Shown here: piece after piece, positions 17,801 to 61,827 of the stretch
Numbering within the stretch: the first letter of the stretch is position 1
Layout: every line of letters starts with the position of its first letter
DNA from: Muricea muricata
Lineage: Eukaryota; Cnidaria; Anthozoa; Malacalcyonacea; Plexauridae
Length of the DNA: 64,000 bases
Direction: 5' to 3'
Assembly (NCBI GenBank): GCA_963855995.1
Contig: OY979717.1
Span: 6,877,428-6,941,427, forward strand
Position numbers and translations under genes: made by a program
The notes under the pieces: generated by a model
Database searches by the model: none
Seen by the model: only the letters and a program-made list of their open reading frames with translations
What the model was told of the DNA's origin: nothing

Positions 17801-19005
17801 AAAATCCCACGCTGAGGCAGGTATATTTTCTTGGCAACTGTTACGACATCCTTGTGCTCTCAGGTAATAACATTTCCACAAAGGAAAATCCAAAATAAAC
17901 GCAAGAGAGCAAAATTTGTCATTACACAACAAAATCTACTTTCCTTCTCGTTATTTTGACTCGAAAGAATAACAACTTAAAACTTTAAGCTCGGACGAAC
18001 AAGGCTCTGAAAAAACAGGGTATTTCGCCTTCCGAAAACAATCAAAGCTGAAATGAAAGCAATACCCCCATTCATTTGGCTAGTTTTCCAAACATACATA
18101 GATCACACAAATATTATGGTTAACCTGCTGGGTCATATTTTCTCTTATTTACCTTCGCTGTTAAGACCATTGCGGGTGGTTGGATATGAAAGGAAACACA
18201 TGATGTGTTTATGCGTCAAATGCGCATAAAGAAAACAGCCAAAACATTTATAGTCTATGCTGATAAAAATTAACAATGATAGAAATACCGAGCGTATAAA
18301 TGGATTTTTCTGCCTTTCAATAACATCAAATACAAGAAGAATCGAAGGAGACTTCGCAATCACACGAAAAGGTAAGTCATCTGTTTAACTCATCAATATT
18401 AAGAAGCAACCCCTATTCATTGCTGTTGCATTAATCAAGTGCATAAAGTATTACATCAAGATTCCCTGCAGTTATACTCCAATCGCCCATGCCGCATTTT
18501 ATCTCACGTTTAACTGTGCAAGTTTTGTGATGTTCTCCAGCAAATGTTAAAAAAATGTCGTATATCGCATGGAATGTGTAAGCAATGTAACCACAAGCAT
18601 GGCAATAACTCCTAAAAGCGTAGGATAGCTTCCTATGGGACAATAGCCAGGAAATCAAGACACATTTGGTGCACAAGTCCTAAGAATAACAAGAGAAAGC
18701 TAATCCGATCAGTTGTAATCTAAAATAAATGATTTAGTGTTGTTTATAAACTGTCTGTTCAACGTAGGAACATAAAGCAGTGCCTGGGTGGGAAGCGATG
18801 AGTTTTGCTGGAGAGAAACGTTGATCTTCACGGGAGGTTAGTTAATATATTTCCCTTGTTACCTCGACATTCAAATCATTGTTTGCATACTGTCAAATAG
18901 ACAACTTCTCCAAACTCATCCGTCGTACTTCATTTTACTTTACAGTTTACAAACTCATCTGAAAAAGATCTAAAAGCATTTAGAAGGGGAAAGAAAAGAC
19001 ACAAA
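14850..19005. other. Non-coding, upstream region of the forkhead gene
   Basis: No gene seen. Short inverted repeats occur at about 15045-15215 (TATAAACTATGAGCGCGCAA and a partial complement) and 17390-17460 (CTTAGCAGGAC with its complement). Upstream of the forkhead start, a donor-like GGAG/GTTAGT near 18836 and an acceptor-like TTTACAG ending at 18945 suggest a short 5'-UTR intron; this is an inference. Confidence 0.4.
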
Positions 19006-19905
19006 ATGTACAAAACATACAAAAGGTTGGAAAATTATCAGGTTGAAGGAAGTTTTGAACCTGCAAAATGTTCAAACGAAGTAAAGAGTGTAGAAAAAGA
19101 AGCGAATTCTTCAAGAAACATGGTGCAGTCTATTCCATCTGTTCATATCTTAGATTACGAAGAAGAAGAAGAGCTACATGATATTTCAAGACATCCAGCG
19201 TATCATTCAAATGAACTTGATGACGAGGACGATCCAAATGAAGAAATAACAGACAGCGAGACGTTGCTAGACAATCGTTCTCAAAGAAAATTAGTGAAAC
19301 CTCCATATTCCTACATTGCTCTCATCACTATGGCCATTGCTCAGTCTTCACAAAAAAAACTCACACTAAGCGAGATCTGCGAATACATCATGAACAGGTT
19401 TCCTTATTACAAAGAGAAATATCCACAATGGCAAAATTCAATCCGTCATAATCTGTCCTTAAATGATTGCTTTGTAAAGATTCCTCGAGAACCTGGGCAA
19501 CCAGGTAAGGGAAATTATTGGACACTTGATCCAGCAAGTGAAGGCATGTTTGACAATGGCAGTTTTCTTCGAAGGAGAAAAAGATTCAAACGACCGAAAA
19601 CAATCACGTTCAATTATTCACCATACAGTCGTGTTCCATCGAGTATACCCAGCTATCCAACTCATGCCATGATGATGTCCCCTCATGGCTACCATTTACC
19701 TGCATTGTCATATTCCTACCGTTCCTTTTTAACCAACTATACGAACAGTATTCCATACAGAAGCGTAATGCCGCTGAAACGAACCAATTCTTCATGTACA
19801 TGTACATATTGTGATGCATGCCCTTCAACAAGACAACCCACATCTGCATCCCAACCGCTAAAATTTTCAATCGAGAGCATCATTGGACAAAGCAAGGTTG
19901 CTTGA
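19006..19905 (+). CDS. FoxD: Forkhead transcription factor, FoxD type
   Basis: Intronless 299-aa protein. An acidic N-terminus ([15 protein letters not shown]) precedes a complete forkhead DNA-binding domain at about residues 97-196. It contains [17 protein letters not shown], the recognition-helix sequence [17 protein letters not shown] and the wing sequence [11 protein letters not shown], ending with the basic RRRKRFKR. The IPREPG...[11 protein letters not shown]...[16 protein letters not shown] pattern is what I know from FoxD proteins. A C-terminal FSIESIIGQ (about 287-295) matches the eh1-like Groucho-binding motif that FoxD proteins usually carry, which suggests a repressor. It acts in the nucleus, and FoxD genes are known regulators of embryonic patterning. 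The start is the first Met of the open frame, with AAA before it. Paralogue identity within the FoxC/D/E/L1 group is inferred from memory of the domain; a tree would settle it. Confidence 0.88.
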
Positions 19906-37411: not shown

Positions 37412-39168
37412 TCATGTTACATGGTGGGTGCAACTTTGGCAATCACAATTTAACTGACAAACACCACAGCAAAGGTGTTTAGGATTAGCTACCTTGATAT
37501 GTTTTTGGTCAGTATCTAGTGAAGTCAGCAATATACTTCTAAGGCACTCAAACTGGCTTCGACAAAATGTCCTGACTGCTTCTTGCATACCCATTTTGTT
37601 TTTTGCAATGTCACGGTTATTGTAGTGCAACACTGCCGTTGCTGGTTGTCCATCCCTTCCAGCTCTGCCAGTTTCCTGAAAGTATGCCTGGATGGTATAT
37701 GGTGGAGTGATATGAACAACACTCCGGATGCCTTTAATATCAACCCCCATTCCCAGGGCTACTGTGGCAAATACAACCCTTATAGTACTTTTTGAAGAGC
37801 ACAGCTGTTTCAGGATTTCATCTTTCATTTCTTGTGTTTGGGGTGAATGGAACTGAGCAAATAGCCTGTTCTCAGGTGCTGGCATTGATCCTGCTGGGAA
37901 GTATTGACTGCTCCCCAAAACTGACTCAAATATCTTGTAAGCAAACCCACACCATTTTAAAGGAATGTAGATAATTGTTAATGGATAGTTTGCCTGTTCC
38001 TTCAATAAATCTTGAGCAATGGGAGAAAGAATTCTGACAATGGACTCGACATCTGGTTCACCTCGAAAATGTTTTGTATACATAATATTTGTTCGGTCTG
38101 GATTGCCAACAACTTCTGCACATGTCTTTAAACCCAATGACTTTTTTACAGATTCTCTGTCATCTTTACTTGCTGTGGCAGTCATGGCTACTACTGGAAC
38201 ACTCAAAAATGTTGCACACAAAACTGCCAAGTTGCCATAGTCTACTCTGAACTCTTTTCCCCTGAAATATTACAGTAAAATTGACGTATTTTAGTTTTGC
38301 ACTTTTTAAATACACAAGTAGCACAACACTATTGTTTCTGGATGGTTAGGCACTGAACAAAGTTCCAATAAAACCAAACAAACCAAAAATACAAATGGCA
38401 ATAAATTATTGTCTTCTAATAAGATTTTATGGTAAAAATTGATATACTTATATACAAATACGACTATTCAAAGGTAAGCCAGGGAATTAATCGAATTTTT
38501 ACTAAATATGGTAATTGTCTGGAAAGTGGAAATATATAGTATCATTAAACTTACCACTCTAAAATACAATGGGCTTCGTCTACAACAATCGCACAGACGT
38601 TCTCCTGGTAAGGTTTACTCTGCATCAGCTTCCTCCCATAAGCACATGACACAAGCGCTTCAGGGTGTGCGAACACAATGTTATAGTGTCCGATTTCAAG
38701 CTTGGCTTTGTCGCTAAGATGAAAGTCACAGACAACAGCTTCTAATTCTGGGTCGTTTTCCTCTTCCTCGACTTCTGACGACCTTACGTCGAGAACAGTT
38801 GCCCGAATTCCACTTGAATCTAACCGTGAGATCTGGTTTGTCATCAGCGCGTTTAAAGGTGATACAACCACGATAATTGATGATATGTTCACCTGTTCTT
38901 TCCTTTTCGGAACACCATGCTTCTTCGCATACAACAGGGCAGGAAGCAAGTAAAAAATCAGCGATTTACCGTATCCAGTAGGTAGGACGACCAGAATATC
39001 CAAATTTAGAAAAATCTGTTCTAGACAAATTACCTGCTTAGGCTTTAAAACAACATCACAATACAAGCTATTTAATATTGCGAACTCCAAGCACGAAAGG
39101 AATTGCCAGCACTTCGAGTTTTTCAACATTGCGACTGACGGAAAACCTGCGAGCGGGCCGAATGACAT
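37412..39168 (-). CDS. RecQ-family DNA helicase carried by the 7.84-kb transposon, 2 exons (487 aa)
   Basis: Exons 39168-38555 and 38261-37412 join inside a Trp codon to give DEAHCILEWGKEFRVDYGNL, the usual RecQ sequence after motif II. Visible motifs in order: a Q/motif-0 region (LKPKQ, about 41-45), motif I PTGYGKS (63-69), motif II DEAH (197-200), motif III MTATAS (231-236), motif V ATVALGMGVDIKG (about 370-382), motif VI QETGRAGRDGQ (400-410), and a Cys cluster (FCRSQFEC, LCCGVCQLNCDC) like the RecQ zinc-binding module. No HRDC or RQC winged helix is evident, so it is a minimal form. The frame is intact. It starts 48 bp inside the right TIR, so it must use a promoter at or near the TIR. 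Expected activity is ATP-driven 3'-5' unwinding; a role in transposition or in repair of excision gaps is inferred. Confidence 0.88.
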
Positions 39169-39406
39169 AAATGTAAATTCACCCGCCCCCGCACGGGAGA
39201 AGAATTTTCATGCTATCACGTGACCAGCCGATACCAGGGTCTTTCCCAAAGAAAGACCCTGGGTACGAGGTTGATAAATCCGCCATTTTGTGGCGACAAG
39301 TTTTTCACAGAGAAAAGATAGGAGTACGCATTCTATATCAATTATTTCTATGAGTACTATACAGAGGGCTCACTCGACGAAAAAAGCGTAACGCGGATTG
39401 GTAGTT

Positions 39407-41924: not shown

Positions 41925-42704
41925 CTCAAATGATATATAGCAGCCTGGTCGCAACTAGCTGCTAGCAAACTTTAAAGAACAAGGCTTGCATAAAATCGCT
42001 ATAAAAACATTTCCCATGGCTTGCAATTTGGACATAGATGTAAAATATATTACTTTCGAGTTTTTCAAAAAATAATATGTACTGTGCACGCATCTTTGCT
42101 TTATCTTTGTTAAGATCTTTCTATACCGCCGTCTTTCCGCTCCTAAACATCGCCGCCATGTTGAATTTTTCAGGGGGGTCACGACCTCTTGCTAGCAAAA
42201 GGCCGTTACGCAAAAATCATAGGAAAAGTGATGAAGTGAGCCCTCTGTATAGTACTCTGTGCTAAGGTGGTTGCTAAGGAAGCATCAGCTCAGCCAATAA
42301 GCGCCAGGCCCTGCATCCGGGACTTCAATTTGTCCCTCAAAAAACGCGTTCCCTTTTGTTTTCAGTGAAATCTGTGGTGAAAAACCGAAGGGTACTTTAC
42401 ACTTTATGCACCTATCAATGTTAGCCGGCAGGGGGGGGAGGCCGGGAAAACCAGGGGATTTGATTGAAAATTTTAATTTCTTGTCAAATATCCGACCCAG
42501 GGAACTTCTTTCATAGTCAAATATGATCAAATTCCCGCTATTGGAAGAAAGGTGATGACCAAAAGATTACAGCACGACGTAGAAAACACAAATTTTAATT
42601 TCAACTTTATTCCAGATGCTGAGCATTCATATTAAATTACACAGAAACTTCAATATAAAACTTGACAAAAATCTTGTGAGTATCATAACAGTGATCCTTT
42701 AAAA

Positions 42705-45700
42705 CTACCAATTGCATTCTAAGCACATCCACATCTCTGGTAAACATCCCTCAATTAATCCTACGCAATCAACATGATGCCAACGCAGGCAGCTATCACA
42801 CTGTATCCAAGAAACTGTGCATTGTTCATTGTCTAAAACTGGATCTCGCAGGTGACAAATCATACAAAGTTCATTGTTCTTATCGCCTTCATCCACTGTT
42901 TGTTGCAAGTCACGATTCCCTTGGACCTGTATGTTTTGTGTTTGCTCTTTTTCCTCAGCCTTTCGCTTTCTTGTTTCTGCTGCTTTCTTAGCTCCTCTTT
43001 TCCGGTTTTGATGAATTTGGTGGAGATGCTCGAACCAAAACTTGACTTCTTCTGGAGTAAGAAGCACCTTTCTCGCTATTTGATGTATAATTTCTTCACT
43101 GGGTACAGACTTTGATTCTTGGTAGACTGTAAGAATCACATCTGATGGTGGGGAAGGATTTCCAACTACACCATTGGAATTATAATGTTCAATAAGCTTG
43201 TCAGGCTTCATGAAGTGCCCTGCACAAAGGCCTTTACATTCTTCACACTGTCCTCCGTAAGGTCTGAGTGGATCGGGTGTGGGTATGGGTACAAACTTCA
43301 AATTTGGCCCACTTGAATACCAGCAACGTTGTGGATCACTTCGCTCTCTTTGACACACGGGATGAATGCAATTTGGTTGATAGCAACAAAGAAGGTAGAA
43401 TAAATACTTTGAAGGAAACAATGGATTGCACAGGTGCCTTTGACGTAATTGCCATACTCTTTCAAACTTTTGGTACATTTCTGCGTGATTTGCTTTCAGT
43501 TCCTCCTTTTGTTTCTTCTTGCCTTTGAGAAAAATATTTAACAATTTACTTTCTTGTCTCTCAGTAGCACTCTCGGCTCCTTTGTACATATGTATTTTTG
43601 TTGATGCACAAGGAGCACCATCAACTCTGGAGATATAAACAGCAATTGCCGCTTCTAAGTTCTTATGCAACAAGCTTTGGTCAATCTGACCGGACTCAGA
43701 ACGGCACGAGCCATGCAGCGTTGATGGAATGAAAACGTTAGCATGTGCTAACGCCAGACACCCATTCTGCAGTTCAACACGGTTAAGGTAACTTCCACCA
43801 CTGCTCCGAGATGTCACCATGAGAGCTCTAGTACCTTTCTCAAGGTGTCTCAAAGTCCACCAGTACTGTATTTCTTGGTGAGCTGGACCCTCATCGAAGC
43901 TTCCATCGACCCTTATACATTCAACGTCTTTCATATCAGCATTGATTGGATTAGTGAATGCCGGCTTGATAGTAGCTTGTTGCTCCAGGAATCTGAGATC
44001 AGCCATGTGCTGTGGAGGGCCTTTTTCGTGAAGTCCTGCAGCCTTCACAACGCCCGCACATATTTCACCAGTTGTTGCTGTTGCTGGGAAGTTGTACGAA
44101 GTTGTTTGCAAGGTTGAAGGATAGTTGTTGACGTAATCTGTCCGCGTCGTTAAGGCTTCTTTTCCTGATACACATAGTGACGCATGGAGTTTGTGAGTGC
44201 TCATAGTATCAAGCCGGAATCCGGCTTGATCATCCCTTCCAATATTTGCAATGTTGGTACCATCAGTGTACTGGATTTTATTTAGTCCAGAATATAATGC
44301 TGAACTCCAGTGACTATCCGGGTTAAAACGAAGGTTGAATCCTTTCCTTGCCCGTCTATGCACAACTTTAGCGATTCCCTTATAGCGACCAGCAGAACGC
44401 CTTCTCTTATTCCTTGCAATGCACATCTGTACTACACTTCCATATGCAAAATTGCGATTGTACTTTTTCTCTAAAAATGCTTTGATGCGTTTGAAAGTTG
44501 CCTTTTTTTGAACTTTTCTGTTGCCGTCAAAGGTAACAACGCCAGTCCGCCGCCAGGCATCAGCACCTGCACCGCACTGGGAAACATACTCTTCTATTGC
44601 TTCACCAATTCCGGGACATTCTTGAATTATTTTGCCAACTCGTTTACTGCGTCGTCTTTTAAGGAATCTTTTTTCCATTATTTTTCTTTTTGCCTCTCTG
44701 GTTGCCTTCCTTTTTAAGGACGCTCTCTTCTTTTGAATAAGTAGTCTGCCATTATTGTCAAAAACATTTGATACCCCGTTCTTCCACACTTCTGCATCAC
44801 TTGAATCTGAGTCCGAGACTATCATTCCATCTTGAAGATCTGCTTCTTTTTGCGAACTCTTATTGACAAGAACGAAAGCTTGTCTGGATTGTTGAAGAAG
44901 CATGTTATCTTCTTTACGCAAGCCCGGCACGCTGGGAAGTTGCTCACTAATGGTCAAAAGCGACTGTTCGATTGTTTCTTTGGGTAGCAATGGGAATTTT
45001 TTACTTATGGCCTCCTCGAGTGCAAACCAGTTAAACTTGGTAAGTTTTAAAACATCTAATATATCTTCAGATTTTACTTCTGTAATATCTGGCTGCTCGT
45101 CCTGATGAGACGTATCATCTCTGGTACACACCATATCATTCTCAACACCAGCATAATGTTCCTTGCGCTGTTCGGATAACTGACTATCATCATCCTCTTC
45201 ACTGTCAGACGTGTCGTCGTTGCTCATAGTGTCTTCCAAGCCAAAAGATTCCAAGAGTGCCCTATCCTTCAGATGTGCAATATTCATTATTGAATCCTTA
45301 AGTTCACATGCTTCTTTGTATGCTGATTCTACTGCTTCAACCCTTCTATTCATATTATGAAAACCGAACACTTTTTGTGCTTTTCCAGCAGACATTCCAG
45401 CCGATTTCACAACTGCATACTTTATACGCTCTTTTTCCGCTTCACTTTCAGCAAGGGTGAGCAAATTTTTCATTTCCTCCTTAGTAACAAAGGATGCGCG
45501 ATTTCCAGCCGTCTTTCCTATAACCTCATTCAAAAGTGACTGAAACACAGCATAGTTAGTACCCGTCTGTTTTTCTACCAAATATATGCAGTAAGTTCCT
45601 GCAGTCTTACTACCAATCCCAACTGCAGCAAAAGGCATTTGCAGCAATTTTCTTTTGGCATGATATGATGTATAAGTAACACCTGGGCTGCACATTTCGA

Positions 45701-45944
45701 ATGCACGTTTTAATGTAATGTACCCTTCCTGCTTTACATGCTTGGCAACGCTTAGTTGTAAACTACAGTCTTGGCAAGTCTTTGCATGATGTGCTTTGCA
45801 AAATAGAGAACGAGCTTCAATATACTGTGCCAAACTTAATCCCTCAAATTTTGAAACGTAAACATCATCTCTGATCTGTTCATAATTGGACAAGTTCATG
45901 CTTTTCTGGTGTTTATAAATCTCTAGGACGTTTTTCCCTTTCAT
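42705..45944 (-). CDS. Putative DDE transposase with homeodomain-like helix and PHD finger (1079 aa)
   Basis: Uninterrupted 1079-codon frame. An N-terminal Cys/His patch (C49...C57, C60) is followed by acidic stretches (239-255) and a strongly basic segment (405-435, likely nuclear targeting). The probable RNase-H-like core has Asp561 in QYTDGTN, Asp680 in ECIRVDGSFDEGP and Glu724 in SYLNRVELQNG. Forty-three residues lie between the last two, in the expected strand-helix-strand-helix order. Residues about 950-990 (IARKVLLTPEEVKFWFEHL, then a basic run) resemble homeodomain helices 2-3. Residues 1027-1077 form a C4HC3 PHD-type finger (CMIC...CDSCLRWHHVDC...CLEC). The frame stays open further upstream, to an acceptor-like TATAG near 45998, so a 5' exon may exist; the Met used is the first in the track. 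Assignment as the element's transposase is an inference from the DDE pattern and its position between TIRs. Confidence 0.75.
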   Translation of the reverse strand: MKGKNVLEIYKHQKSMNLSNYEQIRDDVYVSKFEGLSLAQYIEARSLFCKAHHAKTCQDCSLQLSVAKHVKQEGYITLKRAFEMCSPGVTYTSYHAKRKLLQMPFAAVGIGSKTAGTYCIYLVEKQTGTNYAVFQSLLNEVIGKTAGNRASFVTKEEMKNLLTLAESEAEKERIKYAVVKSAGMSAGKAQKVFGFHNMNRRVEAVESAYKEACELKDSIMNIAHLKDRALLESFGLEDTMSNDDTSDSEEDDDSQLSEQRKEHYAGVENDMVCTRDDTSHQDEQPDITEVKSEDILDVLKLTKFNWFALEEAISKKFPLLPKETIEQSLLTISEQLPSVPGLRKEDNMLLQQSRQAFVLVNKSSQKEADLQDGMIVSDSDSSDAEVWKNGVSNVFDNNGRLLIQKKRASLKRKATREAKRKIMEKRFLKRRRSKRVGKIIQECPGIGEAIEEYVSQCGAGADAWRRTGVVTFDGNRKVQKKATFKRIKAFLEKKYNRNFAYGSVVQMCIARNKRRRSAGRYKGIAKVVHRRARKGFNLRFNPDSHWSSALYSGLNKIQYTDGTNIANIGRDDQAGFRLDTMSTHKLHASLCVSGKEALTTRTDYVNNYPSTLQTTSYNFPATATTGEICAGVVKAAGLHEKGPPQHMADLRFLEQQATIKPAFTNPINADMKDVECIRVDGSFDEGPAHQEIQYWWTLRHLEKGTRALMVTSRSSGGSYLNRVELQNGCLALAHANVFIPSTLHGSCRSESGQIDQSLLHKNLEAAIAVYISRVDGAPCASTKIHMYKGAESATERQESKLLNIFLKGKKKQKEELKANHAEMYQKFERVWQLRQRHLCNPLFPSKYLFYLLCCYQPNCIHPVCQRERSDPQRCWYSSGPNLKFVPIPTPDPLRPYGGQCEECKGLCAGHFMKPDKLIEHYNSNGVVGNPSPPSDVILTVYQESKSVPSEEIIHQIARKVLLTPEEVKFWFEHLHQIHQNRKRGAKKAAETRKRKAEEKEQTQNIQVQGNRDLQQTVDEGDKNNELCMICHLRDPVLDNEQCTVSWIQCDSCLRWHHVDCVGLIEGCLPEMWMCLECNW

Positions 45945-46512
45945 ATCATGAAAGGGAGAAACCGAAAATCCTGCTTCTCTATGTCTCCAATTTGAGTTTC
46001 TATATATAAATAAAAATAAAATTTACCATGTTACTATAAATTACCAACAGAATTTGAACAGCTAAATAGAATCTGCATCTGCACTTACAATAAAACCAAA
46101 CAACACAATTAAAAATTTGGCAATAAATCATAACAATCTTCCATTTGATTTAAATGGATTGTTGAACAATAATAATAGATTGCACAGAACTATTTAGTGC
46201 ACTCTTGCCCCAATTGCCTCGATTTCATGTGGTTATTTCCTCATATTTTGCAAGTTCAAGGATATATTTGTGACTGGGCTCAGTATCAAAGGAAAACATA
46301 TTTGCACACGAAACATGGAGACACAACCTTCACACGTACTGCCATGCTAAAATAGACAAACATAGAAACGAGACCAATGGGACAAAAGTGCTATAGATTA
46401 ATTGGCAAAGTAAACAAAACTTGTAAAAATATACAGCAAACGTTTGTGTTAAATGTACCACACCAATTGTTAAAACAAGTTTGTATACTCATTACAGCTA
46501 TTTTCACAGTGT

Positions 46513-48521
46513 TTAGTGTGCAGTAGATATTTCTGTATCACCTGAAGAATTATCTGAGCTATCACTGTCCAAGTTGACACATTCCTTGTTGCTCAACTCT
46601 TCATTATCCTTGCCCATTCTTTGGAAAGCAGCTTTCAAACCACCACTTTTCATAGGCTTAGCTTGAGGACTTGCAAGGGATGTGGATGTTTTATTCTTGT
46701 GATACCACACTGATTTGGACTCTTTTTTCTGTAAGACTGCTAGCTGCTTTGAGTAGTCATTCTTTTCTTTAAATAATTTCCTGATCTTGTCAGAAATTTC
46801 AGCACACTGACTGTAGTTATTAACAGTTTTAGCTCTGCCTAGCTCTAACTCTCGCATTTTAATGTTGTCTTCTGCCATGGAAATTAACTGTGACAAGTTT
46901 TGTATCTCTTTCTGTCGTTCACCAGACATCAGCTTTGCTCTTTTGGGGCGATTGCCGTCATCTTCACTGCTGGCACTGCTCGATGATTCAGATCTGGAGT
47001 ATCCTTTTTTGTACTTATATGAACCTTCTGACCTGACCTTTTCAACAGCTTTTTGGAGAAGAGTTCCTAAAAGACAATATAAAAATAAAGAATGAGTCAG
47101 ACAAATAAACTTTATAAACAAGAAAAGAAGTATTGTTTTTAGATTTAGCTTTTTAGATTGTAAACAGCTCAAAAAATCCCAATATTGAATTTGATTTTGA
47201 AACTCGATCTCGCTATCTCACCTATATTTACACTCATTAAAGGAAAGTTTTTTGCAAACAGTACCTCTTTGGGTCAAGAGTGTTGGGTCATCCTTTGCTA
47301 GTTCTGCTGCAGCAGTGTTTACTGCCTCTTCATATGGTTTTAAAGGTCTTTTCATATCTTTGTTGAATATTCTGGCACTTTTTGCAAAATCATTATCTAG
47401 CTTTACAGGTTCCTCTGAATCCTTATAATAAATAAACATAATTTCAAGATATTAGCTAACTTGAGCATTTCATTGAATATGTGAAAATAGACTACAATCA
47501 TTAGTAGAATAATTTCAGCAACACAAAAAACTAGTTTTGTTTGTTGGCTCAAGCAGAATTTGAACAATACAACTACTTACAGTTAATGTTGGTCCAATGG
47601 TAAGTGATCCTCCTTCAAGAACAAGTGTTTTTTGGCCACCTGAAGGCTTAGGCTTCTGTTTAATGAATATTTCAGGATCTGAAAATATATAGTATTATGA
47701 CTAGATGGACTTTAAATATGTTAATTGTCAGTATAAACACATTCAATATAAGTATAAACAATAAACATATGGCAACGATTAAAATCAGTCTCAACATGCA
47801 TGTTGCTATGTTGTCAAAGGTTGTGGTTTGATTGTGATTCTATGAGTTATCTTGTTATCCAACTCCCCATTCCAGACATTCCACCCATATCCTACTCCTG
47901 ACAGAAATATGAATATATCCTAGACCTGCCCCTGCAGCCCTGCCTACATTCTATTATAAGGTTATTTGACAAAAGGAAGTTGTATTTTTGCTTCATTAAA
48001 AACATATCATTCATTTGCATACCAAGAATTGTATATATCCAAATGCTACTTTTATTAATACCTTTTATAGTGGTTGTATCTTTGTCACTTGTGACAACAT
48101 GGTAGATTCTATTTCCCCAACCATGTTTTGGTGGTAAGAATTTCTCGCCAGTCATCCTGATGCCTCTTGAGCGATTATTATCAGCGTTTTCATTCGGCCA
48201 GTAGAGTAGTCCAGTAGCTGTCGACCATTGAGATTTTAGAGTACTAAACAACAGTGATTGATCGTCTTCAAGCTCCATTTCCACCTCCTTCCCTTGGTGA
48301 CAAATGACAACACATTCTTCTGGTTCCACATCTTGACAAATAAATGTTAACATTATATTTAAATATTTTTACTTTGAGAAAAGTAGAATACAAGACCAAA
48401 CAAGTTTAGTTTAATTTGTGATGAATATTTATTAACAAAAAGCCATTTAATATATTTAAATATTAATATATTTAAATCAATGACACAATCAACACTTACC
48501 GCGTTCTGCATTGCCCGCCAT
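46513..48521 (-). CDS. Transposon-borne protein with TDP-43 N-terminal-like domain and coiled coil, 5 exons (366 aa)
   Basis: Exons 48521-48500, 48331-48062, 47678-47581, 47421-47265 and 47066-46513, all with GT/AG borders and agreeing phases. Start MAGNAER, with ATGGCGG context, 265 bp inside the right TIR. Residues about 13-90 match the pattern of the TDP-43 N-terminal domain: EDD-x3-L-x-STL-x2-Q (29-42), GLLY (48-51), RGIR (63-66), P-x3-GWGN-x2-Y-x-V (75-86). In TDP-43 this ubiquitin/DIX-like fold drives head-to-tail oligomerisation. There are no RRM domains. The rest is a Ser/Asp/Glu-rich linker with PKRAK (possible nuclear signal), a coiled-coil or UVR-like helix pair (about 225-290, MAEDNIKMRELELGRAKT and onward) and an acidic Ser tail. 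It may be the element's assembly or DNA-architecture protein; this role is inferred. Confidence 0.8.
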
Positions 48522-49350
48522 TTTGAAGAACTGATATAAACACGTGTTGGTATAAACAAAATTAACCCCAGATGTACCATTGATGTTCCTGTGATCCAAC
48601 TGTGTCCCTGCTGCTTTATATATGCGAAACAACAAAATGGCCTCCAATTTTTTTCAAATTTGTCAAACGCCCCTGCCCCGGGACTGTTTTGATGGTCAAA
48701 TTCCCCATTCATGGGATATACTTTCTCGTCAAATCCCGCCCCCTTGCCCGGCCTCCCCCCCCTGCCGGCTAACATTGATAGGTGCATTACCGTACCCAAA
48801 TAACGTCAGTGTGCGATGGCGTGATCAGTTTCTCGTTCTTTTATAATATGTTTTGATGGCGTATGTATTTCGTAATTCCTAGAGTACTGACTACGGTACG
48901 ATAAAGTGTAAAATTTCCAAACAGAAAAAGATTTCGACTGTTGTTATTACGATGCCTCCTCTAGTGTTATTTATAATGTCTATGCCTGGGATTGCCTGGG
49001 TGGGTGGCTGTTGCTATGGGTAGTTCGTGCATGCCCAAGCGCGTGGAAAGTTCGCGTAATTCGAGATTTTTTCGCGATACATTCGATGATTTACATACTT
49101 TTTGAAAGTAATAATACTTAATTAATTTAGCAAACATTAATTTCACGCTATTCTGTCAACTAAGAGTGCTACGTGTTTCTCATGGATTGATTGATAGAGT
49201 TTTTTGACTGTCCGTGAATGAATTTATGAATGTCTGCGATTAAAATACCGGTGGTCACCGGTCACGCGCGAAGTTAAGAAACGTGTCTTGAGTTGACGTG
49301 GCAATATACAAATTATGTTCATTCATAGAACACAATCATGACATGGTAAA

Positions 49351-60540: not shown

Positions 60541-60846
60541 GATACAACAGCAAAATGACGAACGATGCAAAATTGACCCAAGCATCTATGCACAGACAAC
60601 AATCTTTACACGGAAGCCAGGCAGTATAATAATTCTCGTGTGTCGTCAGATGCTACTATTTTAATTTCTTTGAGTTAATCAAAATTAAGATAGCTAGAGT
60701 ATTATGATTGATATTTAAATATAACATATGCATGCAATGTTAATATCAGTAATACAATGCAACCCTATTTTTAGCTTGCGTATGTTGATCATGTCAGTTG
60801 AAAGAGTGCACTTTGATTGTTATAATCAGCAAGCTTTGGTAAAACG

Positions 60847-61827
60847 TTGTTCAATTGTTCACTTGTGAAAAATATAATGGATGGAACAAACGCAACTGGT
60901 CATGAGCACCTTCCATCAACAGGATCTTTCATTGCAATCATTTGCTTTTCCTGTGTATGCATAATTGTTGGCATCTTGGGAAATGCCGGAGTAGTAGTTT
61001 ATAACGTCTCCATGAATCACTCGAAAACGCCAACAACATATTTCGTTATAAATCTAGCAATTTCTGATATCTTAGTCTGTTTGACATTTTTTCCTCCTTG
61101 GATATTCGAGTATATATCGATACTGACTAATGGTCATGATAGTGGTCATGAAACTATTTGTAAAATTGGTGTGACTGCTTCATTTACGAGCATTTCGCTC
61201 TCTATTGCAAACCTTTTAGCCATTCACATAGACAGATTAATATACATAGCAAAACCGCTGAAATATCCTTGGATAGTGACTTGGAAAAGAACCTACATAT
61301 TCTCAATACTAATATGGTTTGTAACAATCGTGAATGCAAGTGTTGTTTATTTCAATGCAAAAGGAATATCTGGCCATGGACAAAGTATTTTTTGTACACT
61401 GGTAAATCAATCTTTGGAAACGTTCCTAGCAATCTTTAACATTTATTTGCCATTTATTGGGGTTTTCTTCTTAAATTATAAAATCTATAAGGTAGCAAAG
61501 TCCCAGAGGAGGAAAATAAGAGGAGAAAACTGCGCAGTAGGGACTCAAAATGGCGTGGAAAGCAGAAAACATTTACAAGAGATGAAAACGATAAAAACAT
61601 TTACCATTGTACTTGGTGTGTTGATTGCCTTTATTATTCCTTTTTTAATAATTACCATTATACGACGGTATATTTGTAAAGGATTTTGTGTTCCCAGCAC
61701 TGTGGTAATGTTTTTTTCAGTACTTGTAGTTTTAAATTCTGTAATGAATCCAATAATATACAGTGCACGAAATAAAGGATACAGGATTGTATATCGACAA
61801 TTGTTTGCTAAGATATGTGGAAGATAA
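60847..61827 (+). CDS. Class A (rhodopsin-like) G-protein-coupled receptor, intronless (326 aa)
   Basis: Seven hydrophobic segments at about 30-52, 63-87, 103-127, 147-166, 190-212, 250-272 and 284-306. Family landmarks: GNAGVVVYN in TM1, NLAISDILVCL in TM2, Cys103 before TM3 and a Cys in loop 2 (SIFCTL), DRLIYI in place of DRY at the end of TM3, and NSVMNPIIYSARN (NPxxY) in TM7. TM6 has AFIIP in place of the usual CWxP. The N-terminus has a NAT glycosylation site. A second Met at 60877 (MDGTNATG), with better context, may be the true start. It is an intronless plasma-membrane receptor of the kind expanded in cnidarians and other invertebrates; the ligand cannot be told. The start lies 306 bp from the hAT end. 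Confidence 0.85.
   Translation: MFNCSLVKNIMDGTNATGHEHLPSTGSFIAIICFSCVCIIVGILGNAGVVVYNVSMNHSKTPTTYFVINLAISDILVCLTFFPPWIFEYISILTNGHDSGHETICKIGVTASFTSISLSIANLLAIHIDRLIYIAKPLKYPWIVTWKRTYIFSILIWFVTIVNASVVYFNAKGISGHGQSIFCTLVNQSLETFLAIFNIYLPFIGVFFLNYKIYKVAKSQRRKIRGENCAVGTQNGVESRKHLQEMKTIKTFTIVLGVLIAFIIPFLIITIIRRYICKGFCVPSTVVMFFSVLVVLNSVMNPIIYSARNKGYRIVYRQLFAKICGR

Follow-up and report, generated by a model that had tools for sequence, protein, structure and literature searches.

The 64,000-nucleotide stretch analysed here (the window; Muricea muricata, contig OY979717.1, positions 6,877,428 to 6,941,427) contains a 6.4-kb DNA transposon at window positions 42407..48786, with two genes that both lie on the minus strand. 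The larger gene encodes a transposase and the smaller a second protein, here called the partner, whose front domain, or head, is of the type found at the N-terminus of TDP-43. Between copies of the element and its relatives the head of the partner is exchanged and its core is constant. Its sequence identifies the element as a two-gene DDE transposon of the cut-and-paste kind, which duplicates a 3-bp TWA target.

The element and its two genes

The original prediction had described 40-bp perfect terminal inverted repeats (TIRs), a TTA duplication and two minus-strand genes, all of which were borne out by comparison of the inverted arms, the flanks and the open reading frames (ORFs). The arms (42406-42449 and 48744-48787) are 98% identical over 44 nt, and their outer 40 bp, starting with TGCACC, match perfectly.

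Joined, the five exons of the partner gene encode 366 aa in one frame, and each of the four introns between them begins with GT and ends with AG. The head had been read as a TDP-43 N-terminal domain (NTD), and this is upheld by a Pfam match to TDP-43_N (PF18694; 62.6 bits against a cut-off of 27.1, E 3.3e-17) and by the best solved-structure relatives, which are TDP-43 NTDs (E 2.8e-5), so that the comparison with TDP-43 NTD structures proposed as a check did return a match. The window partner has no Pfam match at E ≤ 1 to an RNA-recognition motif (RRM), in agreement with the earlier claim, or to Myb. The NTD of TDP-43 is reported to form head-to-tail chains, with E17A/E21A or R52A/R55A abolishing oligomers (PMC5491494), and its assembly is also disrupted by E17R, Y4R and S48E (PMC5830921). 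All four contact residues E17, E21, R52 and R55 are kept in the window head, as E25, E29, R63 and R66; the same E/E/R/R set is found in five of the nine other non-host aligned heads, with K at position 55 in one and partial or changed residues in three.

Behind the head lies a part resembling NCD2 of the NAB proteins, followed by a helical hairpin. In the window partner the match to NAB NCD2 (PF04905) falls just under the Pfam cut-off, at 24.3 bits against 25, and the relative P0105 passes at 31.8 bits; a profile of 13 partner cores, taken from various copies and relatives, finds the NAB1 NCD2 structure with E 3.6e-8. A structural model of a Dendronephthya partner (P0080) has a mean predicted local distance difference test score (pLDDT) of 65.2 and a predicted template-modelling score of 0.30, and predicts NCD2-like helices (blocks 141-200 at pLDDT 84-96) and long helices at residues 233-266 and 270-309 (pLDDT 82-97 in blocks 231-300 and 63 in 301-310), which in this model are taken as an antiparallel hairpin. 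The nearest named relatives of both window proteins come from Dendronephthya gigantea, a soft coral, namely LOC114531847 for the partner (67% identical over 86%) and LOC114531845 for the transposase (80% identical over 90%), and these two genes are probably neighbours on one scaffold.

An extra 5' exon of the transposase gene is possible, as the frame remains open up to 46022. Residues D571, D572, D680 and E724 are conserved in all 45 aligned transposase sequences, and the predicted fold places them in an RNase-H-like arrangement typical of DDE enzymes, with an aspartate ending beta-1 (at 571/572), one after beta-4 and the glutamate in the helix after beta-5. From the triad D561, D680 and E724 named originally, the last two are therefore in place, whereas D561 is rejected as the first catalytic acid in favour of D571/D572, since it is N or T in four of the 45 sequences and beta-1 ends at 571/572. 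Structural matches uphold the PHD finger read earlier, though its Pfam score of 19.9 is below the cut-off of 27, and make the homeodomain-like part likely (Pfam 17.6 against 22.9), the aligned range of the homeodomain matches also extending beyond 43029..43127. No transposase family in Pfam is matched at E ≤ 1 by the window proteins, which may have a very distant PIF/Harbinger link, and the structural match lists for the transposase name no close transposase family, an absence that proves nothing. Residues 680-724 of the window transposase hold no C/DxxH motif.

Table 1. Features of the element, in window positions.
Feature	Position	Strand	Basis or remark
Target site duplication TTA, left	42404..42406	.	
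Left TIR	42407..42446	+	40 bp, perfect
Transposase gene	42705..45944	-	1079 aa from first ATG plus stop; open frame without internal stop
PHD finger	42714..42836	-	Sub-cut-off Pfam match and structural matches
Homeodomain-like helical part	43029..43127	-	Sub-cut-off Pfam match and homeodomain rows among structural matches
RNase-H-like DDE core, residues about 540-735	43740..44327	-	D571/D572, D680, E724
Partner exon 5	46513..47066	-	NCD2-like part ends here, followed by hairpin, tail and stop
Helical hairpin, about residues 230-306	46696..46926	-	Predicted; placed from model of relative P0080
NAB NCD2-like part, residues 154-207	46993..47352	-	Across intron 4; Pfam 24.3 bits, cut-off 25
Partner exon 4	47265..47421	-	NCD2-like part begins
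Partner exon 3	47581..47678	-	
Partner exon 2	48062..48331	-	Holds head domain
TDP-43 N-terminal domain, residues 20-87	48093..48296	-	Pfam, solved-structure matches
Partner exon 1	48500..48521	-	ATG
Right TIR	48747..48786	-	
Target site duplication TTA, right	48787..48789	.	

Copies in the genome and exchange of the head

Searching the 453-Mb genome (74 contigs) with the TIR revealed four more copies that have both ends and one lone end. These copies comprise L009, which is 99.92% identical to the window element over its whole length; L010, about 94% identical and broken; L011, which carries between the same TIRs a transposase 48% identical; and L012 (G000:C2:37536760-37537779), a 1-kb internal-deletion derivative with both ends, a TTA duplication and a partial head exon, which is a deletion form like a miniature inverted-repeat transposable element. 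Duplications of TTA or TAA flank all seven copies in which both ends were read (the window, L009-L012, L046/L020 and L061/L021). The TIR is not a product of chance, since its 17-mer occurs 59 times without mismatch in the genome and its reversed control not at all. A copy with a TDP-43 head at G000:C1:36914641-36930047 has 15.4 kb between its TIRs, perhaps through insertions of other elements.

With the transposase as query, the best 43 of 324 candidates were scored and gave 54 pieces, hand-merged to 42 loci, to which L013 was added to make 43; a second transposase query gave at least seven further loci. A diverged family with a ubiquitin-like head is represented by ten seemingly near-identical copies (L026-L035, e.g. 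G000:C1:15692085, C1:95790418 and C3:40908323). Nine of these copies differ from the reference by 0-2 bases over 4.3 kb, and the tenth shows 239 differences in an ungapped count, probably a shift; over the next 1.5 kb there is at most one difference. Judged from these sequences, the family was recently active. A search for relatives in IMG/VR and among contigs of bacteria and archaea confirmed none.

The partner core was found by tblastn (1.5 kb of flank each) beside 24 of 30 transposase loci, a set that includes the window itself and ten near-identical copies of a single family, and beside one more (L040) by eye. The possibility that other copies consistently lack one of the two genes is thereby answered in the negative, and a related open-frame core adjoins transposases down to about 40% identity. 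The pairing first proposed, of a TDP-43-like protein with a DDE/PHD protein, stands in part, since the constant component is the NCD2-like core plus hairpin, and a TDP-43 domain is just one of four interchangeable heads.

The four head types lie upstream of transposase loci as follows: TDP-43_N at five loci, CIDE-N at nine (two of which, L022 and x2, rest on matches under the Pfam cut-off), a SAM-like helical head at three and a ubiquitin-like head at 15, the latter two names being descriptive labels. A head was found upstream, on the same strand and within 12 kb, at 32 of the 43 transposase loci, and no locus has two types; a hand count that includes the seven added loci gives a head at 34 of 50 (adding C39 with TDP-43_N and C1:46.6 Mb with the ubiquitin-like head). 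Genome-wide, the head searches gave 13 hits for TDP-43_N (at E 10) and, at E 1, 51 for CIDE-N, six for the SAM-like and 21 for the ubiquitin-like head, of which 5, 16, 3 and 15, respectively, are upstream of transposase loci, the chance of such a placement being 0.0006 for one random head hit. At other copies CIDE-N, and not TDP-43_N, is found upstream with E 8.7e-14 or, on two joined exons, E 3.9e-16, and a gene model from Montipora that shares the core has CIDE-N at E 1.6e-14. The head of the Dendronephthya partner is predicted to be all-helical and distinct from the window head, with five predicted helices at residues 9-71 and a fold match list dominated by a helical hairpin. The fourth, ubiquitin-like head shows in alignment a basic stretch (consensus GERRK) and an acidic stretch (FDNDWxEWVDL).

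For 14 of the 91 head hits, a search of 3 kb of same-strand upstream sequence meets an exact TIR, in every case at 443-619 bp. By type, these are six of 13 for TDP-43_N, six of 51 for CIDE-N (at four loci), two of six for the SAM-like head and none of 21 for the ubiquitin-like head. The spacing common to the first three indicates that they share one place in this TIR family; one of the SAM-like loci lies between the TIR copies C1:42898229 and 42906064, and another beside a single TIR copy.

The history of the exchanges was followed in a tree built with FastTree from a transposase core of 362 residues; 19 tips are labelled, those without a known head having been dropped. Parsimony requires five head changes, whereas 2000 shuffles of the labels required 10.9 on average and never fewer than 6, showing that heads are inherited within lineages yet have been repeatedly replaced. 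There are two clear swaps: the window (TDP-43) groups with Dendronephthya (SAM-like, taken from the neighbouring gene model) with support 1.00, and L020/L023 (TDP-43) group with L017-L019 (CIDE-N) with support 0.955. Between the window and L048 heads, which are 59% identical, synonymous sites are saturated and dN (non-synonymous substitutions per site) is 0.30, indicating that this head has been constrained; other head pairs give dN/dS ratios of 0.22-0.73 on few changes, which is not decisive.

Several observations weigh against the proposal, set out below, that the partner polymerises through a replaceable head. No known head was found at 11 of the 43 transposase loci, and 52 of the 91 head hits fall outside the upstream regions of the listed loci; these include apparent host genes, decayed copies (L048 keeps a transposase end) and many hits that are unplaced. 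For the SAM-like head neither Pfam nor PDB gave a sequence match, and confidence in its predicted structure is middling to low, with blocks at pLDDT 46-82 from residue 11 on. Ubiquitin-like heads are the commonest class, with ten of their 15 loci belonging to one family, and none of their 21 hits is near an exact copy of this TIR. Their only ubiquitin matches are weak and inflated by repeats, single units giving E of about 0.6 to 0.7, and no meaningful Pfam match was obtained, the best (E 0.0032) being to an unrelated family with one of six queries. Two other tree nodes are poorly supported (0.02 and 0.16).

The identities of the SAM-like and ubiquitin-like heads are unproven. A SAM domain in P0080 finds no profile match, and the apparent PPR matches are repeat-inflated; for the fourth head, PB1 and ubiquitin were considered, the polyubiquitin E-values coming from repeats.

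Elsewhere in the window, three further regions were noted by eye: an intact open frame with forkhead-like sequence (18901-19905, plus strand), two frames resembling a RecQ-type helicase (37412-39207, minus strand) and a single-exon frame resembling a seven-helix receptor (60826-61827, plus strand).

Proposed role of the partner

The partner is suggested, with a probability of roughly 0.6 and from sequence comparison, to act as a polymerising co-factor for the transposase, its head being replaceable. The homeodomain-like part of the transposase would probably bind DNA and its PHD finger would probably read histone H3 tails, and the partner core would most likely bind the transposase or the element ends. 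The head, in the window a TDP-43-type NTD, would make head-to-tail polymers, assembling the partner into short reversible chains that raise local concentration and avidity and so keep either the two ends or the transposase together. Such a head would be replaceable because self-assembly alone is required of it, and lineages may have swapped it for a CIDE-N, SAM-like or ubiquitin-like domain. We infer the polymerisation of the partner, that of the SAM-like and ubiquitin-like heads, the contact with the transposase and the need for the partner in transposition.

CIDE domains are reported to form charged head-to-tail helical filaments (PMC8647176), and the TDP-43 NTD has been compared with DIX, PB1 and SAM domains (PMC5491494). 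The polymerising scaffold first proposed from the TDP-43 head is strengthened because CIDE-N, another head-to-tail polymer domain, takes the same place, and the pairing is at the same time not specific to TDP-43. Two different polymer domains in one slot are the strongest hint at function, a hint that the two other heads could weaken.

A different function for captured host domains would be that of a decoy directed at the host, in which they co-assemble with TDP-43 or with the CAD/ICAD nuclease pair and disarm silencing or DNA damage responses. The best TDP-43_N and CIDE-N matches (C5:16030294 and C3:28501091), taken as host genes, lie away from listed transposase loci, the kept charged contact residues make co-polymerisation with host TDP-43 possible, and for L046 and L049 the head is roughly as similar to the presumed host TDP-43 domain (39-42%) as to the window head (42-43%), which fits repeated capture. 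The window head, however, is only 34% identical to the presumed host head, and the SAM-like and ubiquitin-like heads have no obvious common host pathway, so that this explanation is considered unlikely.

Equally improbable is that the partner serves as a NAB-like chromatin or transcription co-regulator, with an NCD2 core and an oligomerising front, acting on element or host promoters and not in the transpososome. The match of the core profile to the NAB1 structure and the passing score of P0105 speak for this, as does the N-terminal SAM_NCD1 domain (by its Pfam name) of NAB proteins, in which it oligomerises. The likeness is nevertheless limited to the second part of NCD2, none of eight SAM_NCD1 hits is upstream of a listed transposase locus, and such a regulator would not have to remain with a single family of transposases.

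Capture of host exons by transposons does occur and some copies here are degraded, but chance acquisition of a second gene without a role is very improbable given the open-frame core kept beside distant transposases, the second copy of the window element at 99.9% identity, the constrained window/L048 head and the equal distance of three head types from the element end.

Relation to known systems and significance

PIF/Harbinger elements have 3-bp TWA duplications and two genes, for a DDE transposase recognisable by profile and for a second, Myb-like protein. The element described here shares the TWA duplication (7/7 copies) and the two-gene layout, but differs in having no Pfam transposase match at E ≤ 1, a TIR that starts TGCACC, and a partner without a Myb-like match that instead carries TDP-43_N, the NCD2-like core and the helical hairpin. 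RAG1-RAG2/ProtoRAG likewise combines a DDE recombinase, a PHD finger and a second protein, with a 5-bp target duplication; here the PHD finger is inside the transposase, the duplication is 3 bp and the partner domains are unrelated. Tc1/mariner, IS21 IstA, TnsB and retroviral integrases are 6-12% identical to the window transposase, which adds the PHD and homeodomain-like parts, and the target duplication is TWA, unlike the TA of Tc1/mariner. The hAT, P, MuDR, Kolobok and Dada groups are reported to have C/DxxH between the second D and the last E, which is missing from residues 680-724 here, and the TTAA duplication of Kolobok also differs from the 3-bp TTA or TAA (PMC9587614). Transposon superfamilies have been listed (PMC5753468), and no published description of this element was found in open-licence papers, Repbase reports lying outside that search.

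The partner belongs with TDP-43 in Pfam family and charged polymer residues, but has no RRMs and is joined to the NCD2-like core. CIDE-N, known from DFF40/DFF45, CIDE and DREP proteins, occurs at the swapped position in a mobile element, and the one full-length gene model scanned (P0107) has no nuclease part. With NAB1/NAB2 corepressors the NCD2-like core is common, whereas the window partner has only part of NCD2, another head, and is mobile. CIDE-N is given among the domains enriched in Hydra, in that account without a link to a transposon (PMC7642931), and CIDE-N counts in cnidarian gene sets such as this may be inflated by transposons of the present kind. Of the 51 genome-wide CIDE-N hits in Muricea, 16 are upstream of listed transposase loci and the remainder are mostly unplaced.

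More tentatively, these elements could form a new animal transposon lineage at superfamily level, in which the second gene encodes a transposition scaffold and the polymerisation head of that scaffold (TDP-43 NTD, CIDE-N, SAM-like or PB1/ubiquitin-like) can be interchanged, co-resident families thereby keeping private, non-mixing filaments. While two-gene DDE transposons are known, it would be a new principle for the partner protein to exchange one self-assembly domain for another at its head. If true, it would be a natural experiment indicating that the element requires open-ended head-to-tail polymerisation itself and no single fold, and head swaps would allow a direct test of what higher-order protein polymers do in eukaryotic transposition. 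Such a partner would also place the TDP-43 NTD and CIDE-N outside their known hosts and offer a possible origin or relative for the NAB co-regulators which, if true, would link NAB corepressors to such elements.

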